Source: a virus
Direction: 5' to 3' (one strand)
DNA: 64,000 nucleotides
IMG/VR virus record: IMGVR_UViG_3300047089_000113
Location: 16,595-80,594 of that record
Within the stretch, counting starts at the first letter, position 1; the number at the start of each line of letters is the position of its first letter. Below the pieces are notes generated by a model. The model saw nothing but the letters and a program-made list of their open reading frames with translations. It had not been told where the DNA came from and did no database searches. A program made the translations under genes and the position numbers. Below, piece after piece: positions 15,561 to 55,956 of the stretch.

Positions 15561-16235
15561 TCACACTCCCGCCATAGCTGGCTCGGGACTGGTGCTGGGT
15601 AGCATTCTCGCACCGATGCGCGGCGGCCCCGCGTAGCACCGGCAGTGCGGGTGCACCGAGCCGGGGTAGCCGATCAGCGGCACCGAGCTGGCCCGGAAGT
15701 TCGCGCCGTTCGCGGCCCGGCAGTCGGCGCTGGTCCGGGAGTCGAGCACCGTGTTCCAGCCGAGCATGTCGCCCCAGGTCCACGCGGCCATGTCCACCTG
15801 CATGGCCGCCTGGGCACGCTGCCAGATGGCGTCCCGGTGCTGGCCGAAATAAAGGCGCTCGCGGGCCATCCCAGCCGCGAGCGCCTTTATCACTGCCTCC
15901 CCGCGTGACCGGGCCTCAACCATGTCCCTGGTCAGCCGCCGGGCTGCGGCCAGGGCGAACTGGGCGCGGCGGATCAGGTTGGTGCGGCTGGCGTTCATCG
16001 TGGCCGATCCCGCGACCCCGGTCTGCTCGGGCGGCATCGCCATCACGACCTCCAGCGCGGCCCGCATCGCGCCCCGGCTGACCTTCCAGGTGACCAGCGC
16101 CGCGCCGCCGAGCATGGTCAGCGCGGCGACCGCGCTGGCCGCGCCGACCAGCGCGGTGGCGATGGCCGTCACCGCCGCCGCGTCAGCCGCCGCGTCCTGC
16201 TGCGGCTCCGGTGGCGGCTGCTGCGGGGTGCTCAC
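15561..16235 (-). CDS. MuF-like minor head protein (short form)
   Basis: 224 aa, GTG start overlapping the portal stop (GTGA). The C-terminal half carries the MuF signature: LDSRTSADCRAANG, a Pro/Gly segment and SVHPHCRCYAGPP. The N-terminus is hydrophobic (residues 20-50), which is unusual for MuF. WTWGDMLGW before the signature echoes the WGDVLGAIELA element in the adjacent 1068-aa protein, suggesting the longer modular tail found in other MuF proteins is here split into separate genes. The gene contains a perfect 16-bp inverted repeat (15849-15890). Confidence 0.75.
   Translation of the reverse strand: MSTPQQPPPEPQQDAAADAAAVTAIATALVGAASAVAALTMLGGAALVTWKVSRGAMRAALEVVMAMPPEQTGVAGSATMNASRTNLIRRAQFALAAARRLTRDMVEARSRGEAVIKALAAGMARERLYFGQHRDAIWQRAQAAMQVDMAAWTWGDMLGWNTVLDSRTSADCRAANGANFRASSVPLIGYPGSVHPHCRCYAGPPRIGARMLPSTSPEPAMAGV
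15849..15890. repeat. perfect 16-bp inverted repeat inside the MuF gene
   Basis: Arms 15849-15864 and 15875-15890 are perfect reverse complements around a 10-nt loop. The arms end in ATAAAGG/CCTTTAT, which forces AT-rich codons (ATA, CTT, TAT) that are rare in this genome. Candidate terminator, RNA switch or DNA recognition site within coding sequence. Confidence 0.6.
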
Positions 16236-32812: not shown

Positions 32813-33150
32813 CGTTTATCCTCATCGTCGTGCGGGTGCGTCTCACCCGCTTCCGGTGTAAACATAGCAGGCTGCACGGGCATTCCTGGCAGGACCGGCT
32901 GGCCGGTGTAGGGGTGGCTCATCATCATGCCGTGGATCGGGCAGTGGATCTGCGGCGGGTAGGGGTCCTCGCGGTCGTACGCCATCGCGCAGTTGCACAG
33001 GATCGGCGCGAAGAACTGGACCAGCTCGATCCGCTTCAGCATCTCGGAGCGTTCATACTCCTGAACGCGCTCCATGTGCTCGCGCTGAGCGCGGGTCAGC
33101 CGCTGCTGCGGCTGGCCGAACAGCTCGCTCAGGTCGTTGATCTCCGTCAT
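32809..33150 (-). CDS. hypothetical protein
   Basis: 113 aa from ATG 33150 (ATGA overlap). N-terminal helix (RAQREHMERVQEYERSEMLK), a Cys/His segment (LCNCAMAYDREDPYPPQIHC then PIHG) and a Met/Pro-rich C-terminus. Possible zinc site. The same frame is also the tail of the long open frame from 33516. Confidence 0.5.
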   Translation of the reverse strand: MTEINDLSELFGQPQQRLTRAQREHMERVQEYERSEMLKRIELVQFFAPILCNCAMAYDREDPYPPQIHCPIHGMMMSHPYTGQPVLPGMPVQPAMFTPEAGETHPHDDEDKR

Positions 33151-34015: not shown

Positions 34016-34311
34016 GGCGCATCTGAGCACCGGTCACGCCCCAGGAACTTCTCCATGCAGCGCTGCATCGCGCCGGGCTTGCCGCAGCGGTCCATCCCGC
34101 GCAGCGGGGCCTGGCACGTCTTCGGCTCGGGCAGCGGCGGCGCTTCGGCGTACGTTTCCGAGCGCCTGAGAGCCGCTGAGAGCCGCGCCCGCTCGCCGGG
34201 GTCCAGGGCTGCGGTTGCGTCCCCCAGGGGGCCGTCAGCGGCTCTCAGGGCCTCGCGCAGGGCCGTCCGCGCCATGGCCGCGTCGGTCTGCTCGGCGCTG
34301 GTCGCGCTCAC
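34012..34311 (-). CDS. hypothetical protein
   Basis: 99 aa. Helical N-terminus (MARTALREALRAADGPLGDA) and a Cys-containing C-terminus (KTCQAPLRGMDRCGKPGAMQ, RCMEKFLGRDRC) that could bind metal. Coupled by ATGA on both sides. Confidence 0.5.
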   Translation of the reverse strand: MSATSAEQTDAAMARTALREALRAADGPLGDATAALDPGERARLSAALRRSETYAEAPPLPEPKTCQAPLRGMDRCGKPGAMQRCMEKFLGRDRCSDAP

Positions 34312-38981: not shown

Positions 38982-39014
38982 GGAATCGCTAGGATGTCCT
39001 TGGTGTTTACACCA
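38982..39014 (+). promoter_or_regulatory. SigR-like promoter of the rightward operon
   Basis: GGAAT 38982-38986, 18 nt, GTT 39005-39007 within TGTTTACACC. A TAGGAT also lies in the spacer (38990-38995). A 7-bp hairpin with ATCCC loop follows at 39019-39038, then AAAGGAGAG and ATG 39064. Confidence 0.65.
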
Positions 39015-52419: not shown

Positions 52420-53724
52420 ATGGGATACCCGCAGGGACCGCCGCCGCAGCAAGGCCCGCCGCAGGGCCAGCCGGGGCCGTACGGACAGCAGCAGGGCGGC
52501 TGGCAGCAGCAGGGTCCGCCGCCGCAGCAAGGCGGCTGGCAGCAGCAGGGGCCGCCCCAGGGCCAGGGCTTTGACCCGTACGCCCAGCAGGGCCAGGGCG
52601 GCTACGCGCCGTTCCAGGGCGGCCAGCCGATGGGCGGCGGCGCTGGCAGCTATGACTGGGGCACGATGTACGGCATGGCCGACCACACCGTTGGCCAGCT
52701 CATCGACAAGGGCCTGTACACCGCGATCGTCAAGTCAGCGGACTGGGACCGGACCAAGGACGGCAGCAAGTCCGCCTGGACCATCGTGTTCGGGCTGACC
52801 AGCGGGCCGAAGCCCGGCATGAAGATGACGATGACGATGGCGGTCAGCCCTAAGAAGCTCGACGGCACCGACAATGAGCAGGGGATGGGCATCCTGTTCC
52901 GCCAGCTCGCCTCGATGGGCATCCCGGTGCCGCCGCCGTACGGCCAGCAGGGCTGGTGGCAGATGGGGTGGAACGAGCAGCAGGTGGGCCAGGCCATGGT
53001 CGGCAAGCCGGTGCTGCTCCAGGTGGTCCAGGACGAGTACGACGGCGTGACCCGGAACAAGGTGCGCGACATCCAGCCGCCGCCGCCCGGTGCCCCGACC
53101 CAGCTCCCGAACCTCACCCAGCAGCAGGCCCCGCAGCCGTACGGCCAGCAGCAGGGACCGCCCCAGGGATACCAGCAGGGTCCGCCGCAGCAGCAGCCCG
53201 GCCAGGCCCCGGCACCGTGGCAGCCGCCGCAGCAAGGCCCGCCGCAGCAGCAGCCGCAGTTCGAGGGCCAGGGCTACGGCCAGGGCTTCGGCCAGCAGCA
53301 GCAGGGTCCGCCGCAGGGCCAGGGGTATGCCCAGGGTCCGCCGCCGCAGCAGTGGCAGCAGCAGCAGGGACCGCCTCCCGGCCAGTACCCGCAGGGCTAC
53401 CAGCAGCAGCAGCAGGGACCACCCCAGGGCTACCAGGGTCCGCCCCAGGGCTATGACCCGAGCGTGCCGCCGCACGCCCAGCAGGCCAATCCCGGCGCAC
53501 CGGGCACCGGCCAGTTCACCGGCCAGGGCCAGGCGTGGCAGCCCGGCGTCAACCAGCAGCAGGAGCAGCAGGCCGCGCAGCAGATGGGCCAGCAGCCGTG
53601 GGCCAACCCGAACGGGATGCCGGGCCAGCAGCAGCAGCAGCAGCCGCCGCAGCAGCAGCCGCAGCAGCAGGGCGAGCAGGGTCCGCCGCAGGCTCCGGGA
53701 TGGGCAGGCGGCCAGCCGCAGTAG
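52420..53724 (+). CDS. low-complexity (Gln/Pro/Gly/Tyr) protein with central SSB-like domain
   Basis: 434 aa. Residues 1-75 and about 230-434 are built from GQQQGP, PPQQ and GYQQ units. Residues ~76-222 form a folded domain: VGQLIDKGLYTAIVKSADWD, then WTIVFGLTSGPKPGMKMTM and GITR-type strands (VLLQVVQDEYDGVTRNKVRD), resembling OB-fold SSB/DUF669-like proteins. Starts 6 nt after the Sak4-like gene. Low-complexity tails of this type drive phase separation in other SSBs. Confidence 0.6.
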   Translation: MGYPQGPPPQQGPPQGQPGPYGQQQGGWQQQGPPPQQGGWQQQGPPQGQGFDPYAQQGQGGYAPFQGGQPMGGGAGSYDWGTMYGMADHTVGQLIDKGLYTAIVKSADWDRTKDGSKSAWTIVFGLTSGPKPGMKMTMTMAVSPKKLDGTDNEQGMGILFRQLASMGIPVPPPYGQQGWWQMGWNEQQVGQAMVGKPVLLQVVQDEYDGVTRNKVRDIQPPPPGAPTQLPNLTQQQAPQPYGQQQGPPQGYQQGPPQQQPGQAPAPWQPPQQGPPQQQPQFEGQGYGQGFGQQQQGPPQGQGYAQGPPPQQWQQQQGPPPGQYPQGYQQQQQGPPQGYQGPPQGYDPSVPPHAQQANPGAPGTGQFTGQGQAWQPGVNQQQEQQAAQQMGQQPWANPNGMPGQQQQQQPPQQQPQQQGEQGPPQAPGWAGGQPQ

Positions 53725-53726
53725 AC

Positions 53727-53845
53727 GTGACCGGCTGCACCCCGGCCTGGCGGTAGAAAACCGTTCTCGTGCTACCGGCGCTTGCACCACGGGGAGCGCA
53801 CACACACGGTATGCGGTAGTCACGCGACAGAGGGCAGCCGGTCAC
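53727..53845 (+). ncRNA. structured intergenic region (candidate RNA or leader)
   Basis: GTGACCGGCTGC (53727-53738) pairs perfectly with GCAGCCGGTCAC (53834-53845). Inside, CGGTAG pairs with CTACCG and CCCCG with CGGGG. No open frame with a ribosome site. Sits between the SSB-like gene and the gene at 53898. Confidence 0.4.
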
Positions 53846-53897
53846 CCCTGGCTAGCCGAGACCCGGCTGGCCGACGACACCACACAGAAGGAAGACG

Positions 53898-54686
53898 ATG
53901 CAGATAACCCGAACCGAGACATCGACGGGCACCGAGGACCGGACGCGGCGCGAGGAAATCGTGCCGCTGAACACCGGCACCCGCGAGGTCGAGCCCGAGA
54001 TGTACCTGGACTGCTCCGAGTCCGAGGGCTGGCCCTGGAGCAGCCAGCCCAGCCTCAACACCTGGGGCATCCAGATCGAGGCCGTGCGCGGCTTCATCGT
54101 CCCGTTCGAGGCGCTGGACAGCCAGGCCGCCGCCGAGCAGGCCGGTGGCGACGATGAGAAGGGCGGCGTCTACGCCTACCCCTTCAGCAACGCCTTCCTG
54201 CCGATCGGGAAGGGCGACGATGACGGCGACCTGAACAGCTCCAACTTCACCGAGAAGCTGGCCGCGTTCATGGCCAAGTACTTCCGGGACGGCCTGCCGC
54301 GCGGCGGCACCGAGGCGATGACCGCGATCCGCGCCGGGGATGAGCACTTCATGGGCGAGTTCCGCTCCGACCCGCGTGACGAGCGGCCGGTGCGCGCCCG
54401 CGTGATGTGGACGGACGGCATGCTCAACGATGCCAGCCAGTTCCAGAGGTACCTGGCCCAGGCCACCCTGACGCCCGAGGGCTACGGCGCTCACGGCGAC
54501 TGGGACGAGGTGTGGGCGGTCGCTATCCTGGGCGAGCCCGGCGGCGGCGGCAAGGCTGCCTACGAGCAGTACGTGGCCCTGGCCAAGGACCACCCGTGGA
54601 TACACGCCTACTACTTTGAGGGCGTGACCAACCCGGCCGAGGTCGCGGAGGACATGGCCGTCGCGGTGGTCCCCACCGCCGCGTAG
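53898..54686 (+). CDS. hypothetical acidic protein
   Basis: 262 aa, AGAAGGAAG upstream. VARIABLE start region then PEMYLDCSESEGWPWSSQPS, RVMWTDGMLNDASQFQRYLA, WDEVWAVAILGEPGGGG and YYFEGVTNPAEVAEDMAVAV. Contains a WTDG-type turn as in some vWFA-like proteins, but the metal site is not convincing. Flanked on both sides by structured non-coding DNA. Function unknown. Confidence 0.5.
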   Translation: MQITRTETSTGTEDRTRREEIVPLNTGTREVEPEMYLDCSESEGWPWSSQPSLNTWGIQIEAVRGFIVPFEALDSQAAAEQAGGDDEKGGVYAYPFSNAFLPIGKGDDDGDLNSSNFTEKLAAFMAKYFRDGLPRGGTEAMTAIRAGDEHFMGEFRSDPRDERPVRARVMWTDGMLNDASQFQRYLAQATLTPEGYGAHGDWDEVWAVAILGEPGGGGKAAYEQYVALAKDHPWIHAYYFEGVTNPAEVAEDMAVAVVPTAA

Positions 54687-54695
54687 CCGCAGATC

Positions 54696-54846
54696 GTGCC
54701 CGCGCCAGCCGGGCTCTCAGCAGTGCACGGGACTGCGGGAGTTTACGGACGATCGGCTGGCGCGGGCACACCCGCAGCCCCGCAGGCTCTCTGAATGCGC
54801 GCGGGTGCGAGAGCACCCCGACCTGGCACAACCTGCGGGGCTGCGG
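54696..54846 (+). ncRNA. two tandem long stem-loops (candidate structured RNA)
   Basis: Stem 1: 54696-54711 with 54754-54769, 16 bp perfect; inner GCAGT/ACTGC. Stem 2: 54772-54786 with 54832-54846, 15 bp perfect; inner GGGTGC-GAGA-GCACCC with a GNRA tetraloop. They lie back to back, followed directly by the next promoter. No coding potential seen. Confidence 0.5.
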
Positions 54847-54849
54847 CCT

Positions 54850-54900
54850 GGAATAGATCACGGGCCTGGGGTGTTTACACCATCGAAGGGCAAAGAGCCC
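54850..54900 (+). promoter_or_regulatory. SigR-like promoter of the DUF932 gene
   Basis: GGAAT 54850-54854, 18 nt, GTT 54873-54875 in GGTGTTTACACC. A 4-bp GGGC/GCCC hairpin lies at 54888-54900. Confidence 0.6.
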
Positions 54901-54933
54901 GGAATGTCAGACCCGAAGGACACGATACAGATC

Positions 54934-55956
54934 ATGAGTCAGGAAACGAGCGAGTGGCTGAACAACTACACGTTGATCGGCTTCACCGACAAGCGCGGCA
55001 AAGCGTGGCACTACCGCGAGAGCGCGCAGGGCGCTGAGCCCAACCACTACCCCCAGGAGATCCCGGTGCCGGACATCAAGCGCCGCCTGTTCGACTGGGA
55101 GCCCGCCATCGGCACGTCGCAGTCCACCTGGACCGACGCTGACGGCAAGACCCGCACCAGCACGTGGCAGGACCGGATCACCCTGATCCACCCGCACACC
55201 GGCTTCCGCCTCGGTGAGTTCACCGATGGCTTCACGCCGCACAGCTTCAGCCAGTGGCTGGTGGACCTGAGCCAGGACGTCATGGACTCCGACGTCGGGG
55301 CCAGCTCGGCAGGACTGCTGAAGGGCGGCAAGCTCGCCTGGGTGCAGTTCGAGCTGCCCGAGACGCTGGACACGCCCGAGGGCATCAGCTACCGGCCGTT
55401 CTTCCTGGCCGCAGACAGCCTCGACGGCTCGCTGAGCACCACGCACCAGCGTGGCGTGCAGCTCGTGGTGTGCGACAACACGCTGGCGGCAGGGCTGTCC
55501 GAGGGCAACGCCCTGAAGGTCAAGACCCGGCACAGCAAGTACTCCAACGCCAACATCGGTGACGTCCGCGCCAAGCTGGACATCATCTACCAGGCGGGCG
55601 ACGACTTCGCCGCCGAGGTGGCCAAGCTCTCCGCGACACAGGTCAGCGACCCGCAGTGGGACGCCTTCCTGAAGGCCCACCTGGGCGACCGCCCGGAGGA
55701 CAAGGGCCGTGGGCAGACCAACTACGACAACCACCGTGACGGTCTCCAGAACCTCTGGGACAACGACATGCGGGTTGCCCCGTGGTCCAACACCGCGATG
55801 GGGGTCGTGCAGGCGGTCAACACCTACGCGCACCACATCCAGACCGTGAAGGGCGCAGAGCGCGCCGAGCGGAACATGACCAAGATGGTGACCGGCGAGT
55901 TCGAGAAGCTGGACGCCGCCACCCTGGACCAGCTCAACCTGGTGCTGGCGGCCTGA
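54934..55956 (+). CDS. DUF932-family protein
   Basis: 340 aa from ATG 54934, chosen because GAAGGACACGATACAG matches the leader of neighbouring genes; ATG 54904 is also in frame. STTHQRGVQLVVCDNTLAAG then KVKTRHSKYSNANIGDVRAK matches DUF932 (phage/plasmid-like protein family) of unknown role. Own SigR-like promoter at 54850-54882. Confidence 0.7.
   Translation: MSQETSEWLNNYTLIGFTDKRGKAWHYRESAQGAEPNHYPQEIPVPDIKRRLFDWEPAIGTSQSTWTDADGKTRTSTWQDRITLIHPHTGFRLGEFTDGFTPHSFSQWLVDLSQDVMDSDVGASSAGLLKGGKLAWVQFELPETLDTPEGISYRPFFLAADSLDGSLSTTHQRGVQLVVCDNTLAAGLSEGNALKVKTRHSKYSNANIGDVRAKLDIIYQAGDDFAAEVAKLSATQVSDPQWDAFLKAHLGDRPEDKGRGQTNYDNHRDGLQNLWDNDMRVAPWSNTAMGVVQAVNTYAHHIQTVKGAERAERNMTKMVTGEFEKLDAATLDQLNLVLAA

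Follow-up and report, generated by a model that had tools for sequence, protein, structure and literature searches.

Conserved stem-loops between replication-region genes of a metagenomic phage as candidate structured RNAs

What are the long perfect stem-loops that surround the gene of an acidic protein in the replication and recombination region of this phage, and could they act as RNA? The stretch analyzed here, called the window, is 64,000 nucleotides long and spans positions 16595-80594 of a virus record of 80.6 kb; the phage is known from metagenomes only. Its host appears to be of actinobacterial type, in view of a G+C content near 68% and of the mostly actinobacterial-phage relatives of its DUF932 protein and exonuclease. 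The region encodes, in this order, a helicase (48285), a PD-(D/E)XK exonuclease (50006), a Sak4-like protein (51622), a Gln/Pro-rich protein (52420-53724, + strand), then, after a first gap, the acidic protein of 262 residues (53898-54686, + strand) and, after a second gap, a DUF932 protein (Pfam PF06067, phrog_1221; 54904-55956, + strand). The relatives of the latter align from residue 11, so that its true start may be the ATG at 54934. The Gln/Pro-rich protein is likely a single-stranded DNA-binding protein, since its DNA matches annotated genes of this function in Microbacterium phages.

The acidic protein has no family match. Its relatives, with 70-88% identity, come from metagenomic phages only, and those of L008-L011 have no adjoining DUF932 gene; a search of isolated phages gave no match. 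It carries a DxSxS motif (YLDCSES) and a TDG motif, a MIDAS-like combination typical of VWA domains, and is thus possibly a VWA domain protein, which is to be taken as a lead only; its structure prediction has a mean pLDDT of 37. As a separate observation, made from its sequence only, Streptomyces phage Yara shows apparent tRNA-like genes (L053 5992-6110 and 6821-6885) in the gaps 3' of its recombination genes, which correspond to the positions of SL1 and of SL2/SL3, described below, in the window.

An earlier note on this DNA had described three perfect outer stems of 12, 16 and 15 bp; all are exact in the sequence, and their coordinates place them in the two gaps on either side of the open reading frame 53898-54686. 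SL1 (53727-53845, + strand) has a 12-bp outer stem (53727-53738/53834-53845) with nested helices, a conserved CCACGGG loop and a CACAC segment. A simple 10-bp hairpin (53849-53873, + strand) lies between it and the gene of the 262-residue protein. In the second gap, the 16-bp stem (54696-54711/54754-54769) of SL2 (54696-54769, + strand) is followed inward by the stems CTCTC/GGGAG and GCAGT/ACTGC, and the 15-bp outer stem (54772-54786/54832-54846) of SL3 (54772-54846, + strand) surrounds a conserved core. The nested GAGA tetraloop that had also been noticed is present at 54809-54812, closed by GGGTGC/GCACCC.

Such stems are improbable by chance. Perfect inverted repeats of at least 14 bp with a loop of at most 150 nt occur five times in the 64-kb window, as compared with about 0.2 times per dinucleotide-shuffled window, and two of the five, SL2 and SL3, fall inside 151 nt. 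Stems of 12 bp are found 1.4 times per shuffled window and are weak evidence alone; SL1 therefore owes most of its support to conservation in relatives. The predicted folds are also more stable than expected, with a z-score of -6.9 for the second gap (54690-54904; none of 200 shuffles equally stable) and of -3.05 for the first (53720-53897). Taken singly, the values are -6.3 for SL2, -5.8 for SL3, -3.0 for SL1 and -4.8 for the hairpin at 53849-53873.

Further long stems are found elsewhere in the window, at 15849, 20320, 34165 and 35224. The first is a perfect 16-bp inverted repeat, ATAAAGGCGCTCGCGG, that encloses a loop of 10 nt (15849-15890), within a leftward gene block, and the one at 34165-34249 is a 15-bp inverted repeat, CCTGAGAGCCGCTGA, enclosing a folded 55-nt loop. 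The segment 35224-35418 contains seven copies of ACACCCGCA, in both orientations over about 200 nt, together with a 14-bp inverted repeat, and separates mostly leftward from mostly rightward gene blocks; three copies are also present in G001, a relative of the phage (L026 11151-11220). This iteron-like array is a candidate origin or control region. What sets the SL locus apart within the window is not its long stems as such but its conserved core.

This core (54784-54834, + strand) reads AGG-CTCTCTGAATGCGCG-N-GGG, followed by a variable hairpin (here TGC-GAGA-GCA) and by CCCCGAC-N3-GCACAA-CCT. As RNA, it forms an asymmetric internal loop, AGG-CUCUCUGAAUGCGCG-N-GGG...CCCCGAC-N3-GCACAA-CCU, which is near-invariant in five metagenomic phages: 38 columns of the alignment are the same in all five, and the small departures are confined to the variable letters. 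G001 (81.7 kb) and G002 (34.9 kb), which are close relatives, were retrieved through their DUF932 and 262-residue proteins, and their neighboring genes are 86-90% identical in DNA to those of the window. Two other carriers, L016 (3300047315_000289) and L031 (3300021475_000010), were found by a scan with the 19-mer CTCTCTGAATGCGCGCGGG, and then with gapped forms of it. A 22-bp piece of the SL3 core is the sole DNA match of these two with the window. At the protein level, the 70-kb L031 phage shares with the window phage an exonuclease at 24% and a helicase at 22% identity, as well as fragments of a 1,300-residue protein, the one exception to this remoteness being a gene of the gp49_66 family, at 70% identity. 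The five sequences amount to effectively three independent ones. Each phage has a single copy of SL3, which is in the sense orientation relative to transcription in all five.

The stems around this loop behave quite differently. The outer stems are unrelated in sequence and yet unbroken, namely CCGCAGCCCCGCAGG/CCTGCGGGGCTGCGG (window), GAACCCCTGCCTGG/CCAGGCAGGGGTTC (L016) and GGAACCCCGTCTGG/CCAGGCGGGGTTCC (L031); the inner stems also differ and still pair, around an inner hairpin of 10, 19, 33 or 34 nt. When the outer stems of L016 and L031 are compared from the inside out, four of 14 pairs differ (three double changes and one G-U pair) and none is broken, part of which could be accounted for by the deletion of a single base pair, also a change on both strands. 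The covariation score of SL3 is 0.178, as compared with 0.048 in shuffled alignments (the observed value was reached in none of 500) and with a maximum of 0.106 in slid controls; it tests the outer helix only, helices 2 and 3 of the core being nearly invariant. In the model-fitted alignment, 91% of the cells pair, and core position 54802, which falls at a bulge of the model, varies freely as a bulge would (C, C, A, C and U across the phages). When folded freely, the sequences of the relatives L007 and L006 reach an energy minimum 10 and 6 kcal/mol, respectively, below that of the common core model, in a structure that pairs CUCUCUGA elsewhere. Transfer, instead of long constraint, could explain why two phage groups share the core; the replacement of the stems argues for constraint since any such transfer.

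A covariance model built from these same five sequences scores them at 71-101 bits, the next best match having 16 bits. The core was also searched for more widely. By DNA comparison, isolated phages gave one 18-nt chance match only, and the covariance model found nothing in 13 related isolated phage records. Among about 85,000 prokaryote genomes, the strict pattern had no match and the relaxed pattern three, two of which were scored with the model, at 16 bits or less, as expected by chance; nothing relevant was found in plasmids. Rfam 15 gave no match at the gathering threshold in the window, L016, L031 or L017, and a permissive search returned chance-level matches only (best E-value 0.89). 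No antisense complement of at least 11 nt to the tested loop segments was present in the phage genomes, which does not fit a c4-like RNA.

SL1 shows conservation of a similar kind on a smaller scale. Its outer stem GTGACCGGCTG/CAGCCGGTCAC and nested fold are kept in three sequences, two of them close, effectively two independent ones, and three pairs are changed on both sides. The SL1 model matches once in each of three related phages, and gave no match in G003 and G004. Two apparent carriers of the SL1 loop, L033 and L034, were discarded as chance matches: a pattern with 18 specified bases should give about this many, and neither was recovered with the SL1 model. The suggestion that the gaps contain one or more structured RNAs is thus supported by an invariant loop on replaced, pairing stems for SL3 (five phages) and by a fold with compensatory changes for SL1 (three phages). 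Covariation in homologues, on which this suggestion had been made to depend, is present, and the suggestion survives. For SL2, no clear homologue is apparent; a loosely similar hairpin of G001/G002 (L007 7043-7083) has only some letters in common with it.

The arrangement of these elements relative to the genes is variable. In G001 and G002, the gap before the gene of the 262-residue protein is short and without stem-loop, whereas the gap after it holds the homologues of SL1 and SL3 and two more hairpins. The order is thus SL1, gene, SL2, SL3, DUF932 in the window, as compared with gene, SL1, SL3, hairpin, hairpin, DUF932 in G001. SL1 lies before this gene in the window and after it in L006/L007, and SL3 lies 5' of the DUF932 gene in one phage group and 5' of an unrelated small gene in the other. 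Neither keeps the constant position upstream of the same gene that is expected of a cis-acting leader or riboswitch. The earlier idea of leaders controlling the acidic protein and DUF932 is therefore not supported, and the hairpins appear to behave as movable modules rather than as leaders of particular genes.

The space between SL3 and the DUF932 gene also speaks against a leader of the latter. It contains a promoter-like element, GGAAT-N18-GTT, within GGAATA-N14-GGTGTTTACACC (54850-54881, + strand), which begins 4 nt past SL3, and a DUF932 message initiated from it would start after SL3 and omit it. The window contains seven copies of GGAAT-N18-GTT, at 38982, 40025, 54850, 56348, 61256 and 61853 on the + strand and at 32886 on the - strand, as compared with a mean of 0.36 and a maximum of 3 in 200 shuffles; G001 has eight and G002 six. 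Most are of the form GGAATA-N14-[AG]GTGTTTACACC. GGAATN18GTT is the published consensus of SigR, a Streptomyces host sigma factor of the oxidative stress response (PMC2375139). A search of the phage record for Sigma70 region 2 or 4 domains found none, so that the phage may use a host SigR-type factor. The palindrome-like GGTGTTTACACC motif itself has 28 matches with at most three mismatches, as compared with 5.6 expected (25339, 39002, 54870, 58306, 61873 and others); some copies have no upstream GGAAT box, and the motif may thus also be an operator.

Among the other explanations of the locus, the simplest is that the stems are transcription terminators or insulators, which stop upstream transcription ahead of the next promoter, their elaborate loops being incidental. 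SL2 begins 9 nt past the stop codon of the 262-residue protein gene, L016 and L031 have simple 14-bp hairpins a short distance past stop codons, a promoter-like element lies downstream of SL3, and, in the Streptomyces phages PHTowN and phiRKBJ001, the gene next downstream of the RecA-like gene is itself followed by plain strong hairpins. However, the 12 nt after each stem contain no U-tract (the longest T run, of three, being that of L016/L031), so that the classical combination of a G+C-rich stem and a U-tract is lacking, and terminator prediction made no call on the + strand. A terminator has no need of an invariant asymmetric loop of more than 30 nt, and SL3 of L016 and L031 immediately adjoins the ribosome-binding site of the following gene, no SigR-like promoter separating the two. 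Termination as the general explanation is therefore considered unlikely, and the statement that the structures are too elaborate for terminators seems fair for SL1 and SL3; it holds less well for SL2, possibly a stem of the terminator type. Should SL3 not be a terminator, this role may still well apply to SL2 and to the plain hairpins. Host RNase III could instead cut the stems and separate the messages, as at the intercistronic processing sites of phage T7. The folds and positions do show the features of such sites, namely an irregular hairpin with a long lower stem, an asymmetric internal loop and an upper stem, placed between genes in the sense orientation and independently of the neighboring genes. 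RNase III is not known to need much fixed sequence, and a loop that is near-invariant across phages with proteins of 22-24% identity exceeds this requirement, which makes processing alone a distinctly unlikely explanation.

The locus might also act as DNA, for example as a single-stranded hairpin recognized by a replication, recombination or packaging protein. Its single copy per genome and its location in the replication and recombination region, close to the exonuclease, Sak4-like and likely single-stranded DNA-binding protein genes, would fit, and compensation in the stems is likewise expected of such an element, apart from the few G-U pairs. One of these replaces a Watson-Crick pair in the L031 stem and two more are found in the inner stem of L031, as tolerated in RNA. 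The constant sense orientation, a position with respect to the recombination genes that differs between the phage groups, and the absence of a GC-skew switch at the locus also go against a DNA element, which thus looks improbable. A cis-acting leader, or a start codon within the hairpin that controls or encodes a small peptide, is suggested by the invariant AGG-N8-ATG of the core and by a frame running through MR(A/V)G...PR(L/P)xTT in four of the five phages. This frame is broken by a frameshift in L006, the codons of L016 and L031 differ by one synonymous and ten nonsynonymous changes, and no protein similarity extends past the core; the conservation of the core is therefore not that of a protein-coding sequence, and a small coding gene was rejected. 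With different downstream genes in the two groups and the promoter-like motif parting SL3 from DUF932 in the window, control in cis or through a peptide seems scarcely probable. An RNA-based prophage replication origin of the kind found in cluster A mycobacteriophages would be non-coding and intergenic, as here, and such RNAs exist in phages of this actinobacterial type (PMC7157519). They adjoin parABS, whereas no ParA-type ATPase (AAA_31), tyrosine integrase or serine recombinase/resolvase was found in G000, G001 and G004; there is thus no sign of a prophage state, and this origin is a very remote prospect.

We tentatively prefer to see SL3 as a structured RNA of an undescribed phage family, carried in or cut from the messages of the replication region and recognized by a host factor, a reading to which we give slightly less than even weight; SL1 is probably a second phage RNA of this kind. 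Such a small RNA module would consist of long, freely changing stems holding an invariant asymmetric loop in shape, the loop being the recognized part. An invariant loop on replaceable stems is what selection would produce if recognition by a partner constrains the loop and the stems serve only as its support, and modules that are sense-oriented, intergenic and independent of their neighbors fit an RNA acting as a unit. The modules would travel in messages of the replication and recombination region and act independently of the adjoining gene, each most likely being transcribed by read-through from the gene upstream. The stems of 15-16 bp may stabilize the module or allow its excision, for example by RNase III. 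The partner specifically bound by the loop would probably be a protein or ribonucleoprotein of the host; no phage gene is clearly common to both groups and otherwise rare, which makes a host partner more likely.

The literal conservation of the core between phages whose replication proteins are less than 25% identical points to a strongly selected interaction. In a bolder and rather doubtful version, SL3, and perhaps SL1, would be a trans-acting phage RNA, the loop of which sequesters or diverts a factor conserved in actinobacterial hosts; this factor could be an RNase, part of the ribosome or of the polymerase, or a protein of host defense. If true, this would define a new class of decoy or effector RNA in phages that otherwise share almost nothing, and few non-coding RNAs of actinobacterial phages have been described. 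The short length of the core, its single copy and its separability from the stems should make its partner accessible to RNA pull-down and allow the RNA to be deleted while sparing the genes.

Comparison with known systems helps to place SL3. The RNase III sites of T7 are intergenic irregular hairpins with asymmetric internal loops, in the sense orientation and not tied to one gene. SL3 resembles them in its intergenic location, fold and orientation, and differs in that its loop sequence hardly changes between very distant phages, the stems being replaced. The put antitermination RNAs of HK022 are strong stem-loops of about 70 nt with conserved unpaired bases, paired just downstream of early promoters, and act on RNA polymerase. 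SL3 shares their size, strong stem-loops and conserved unpaired bases, but it lies before a promoter-like motif. Like c4 antisense RNA and further RNA motifs that comparative genomics has uncovered in phages through covariation (PMC2864571), SL3 is a conserved structured phage element revealed by covariation; unlike them, it has neither an Rfam match at the gathering score nor an antisense target of at least 11 nt in the phage genomes. The prophage RNA origins of cluster A mycobacteriophages are transcribed regions of a few hundred bp beside parABS (PMC7157519), whereas SL3 is a compact hairpin core in phages where no ParA or integrase gene was found. Finally, the extended start-associated sequences of cluster K mycobacteriophages, which are repeated intergenic inverted repeats near gene starts (PMC3203893), may be compared with the GGAATA-N14-GGTGTTTACACC repeats of the window; SL1-SL3 are, in contrast, single-copy and long-stemmed, with a different conserved core.
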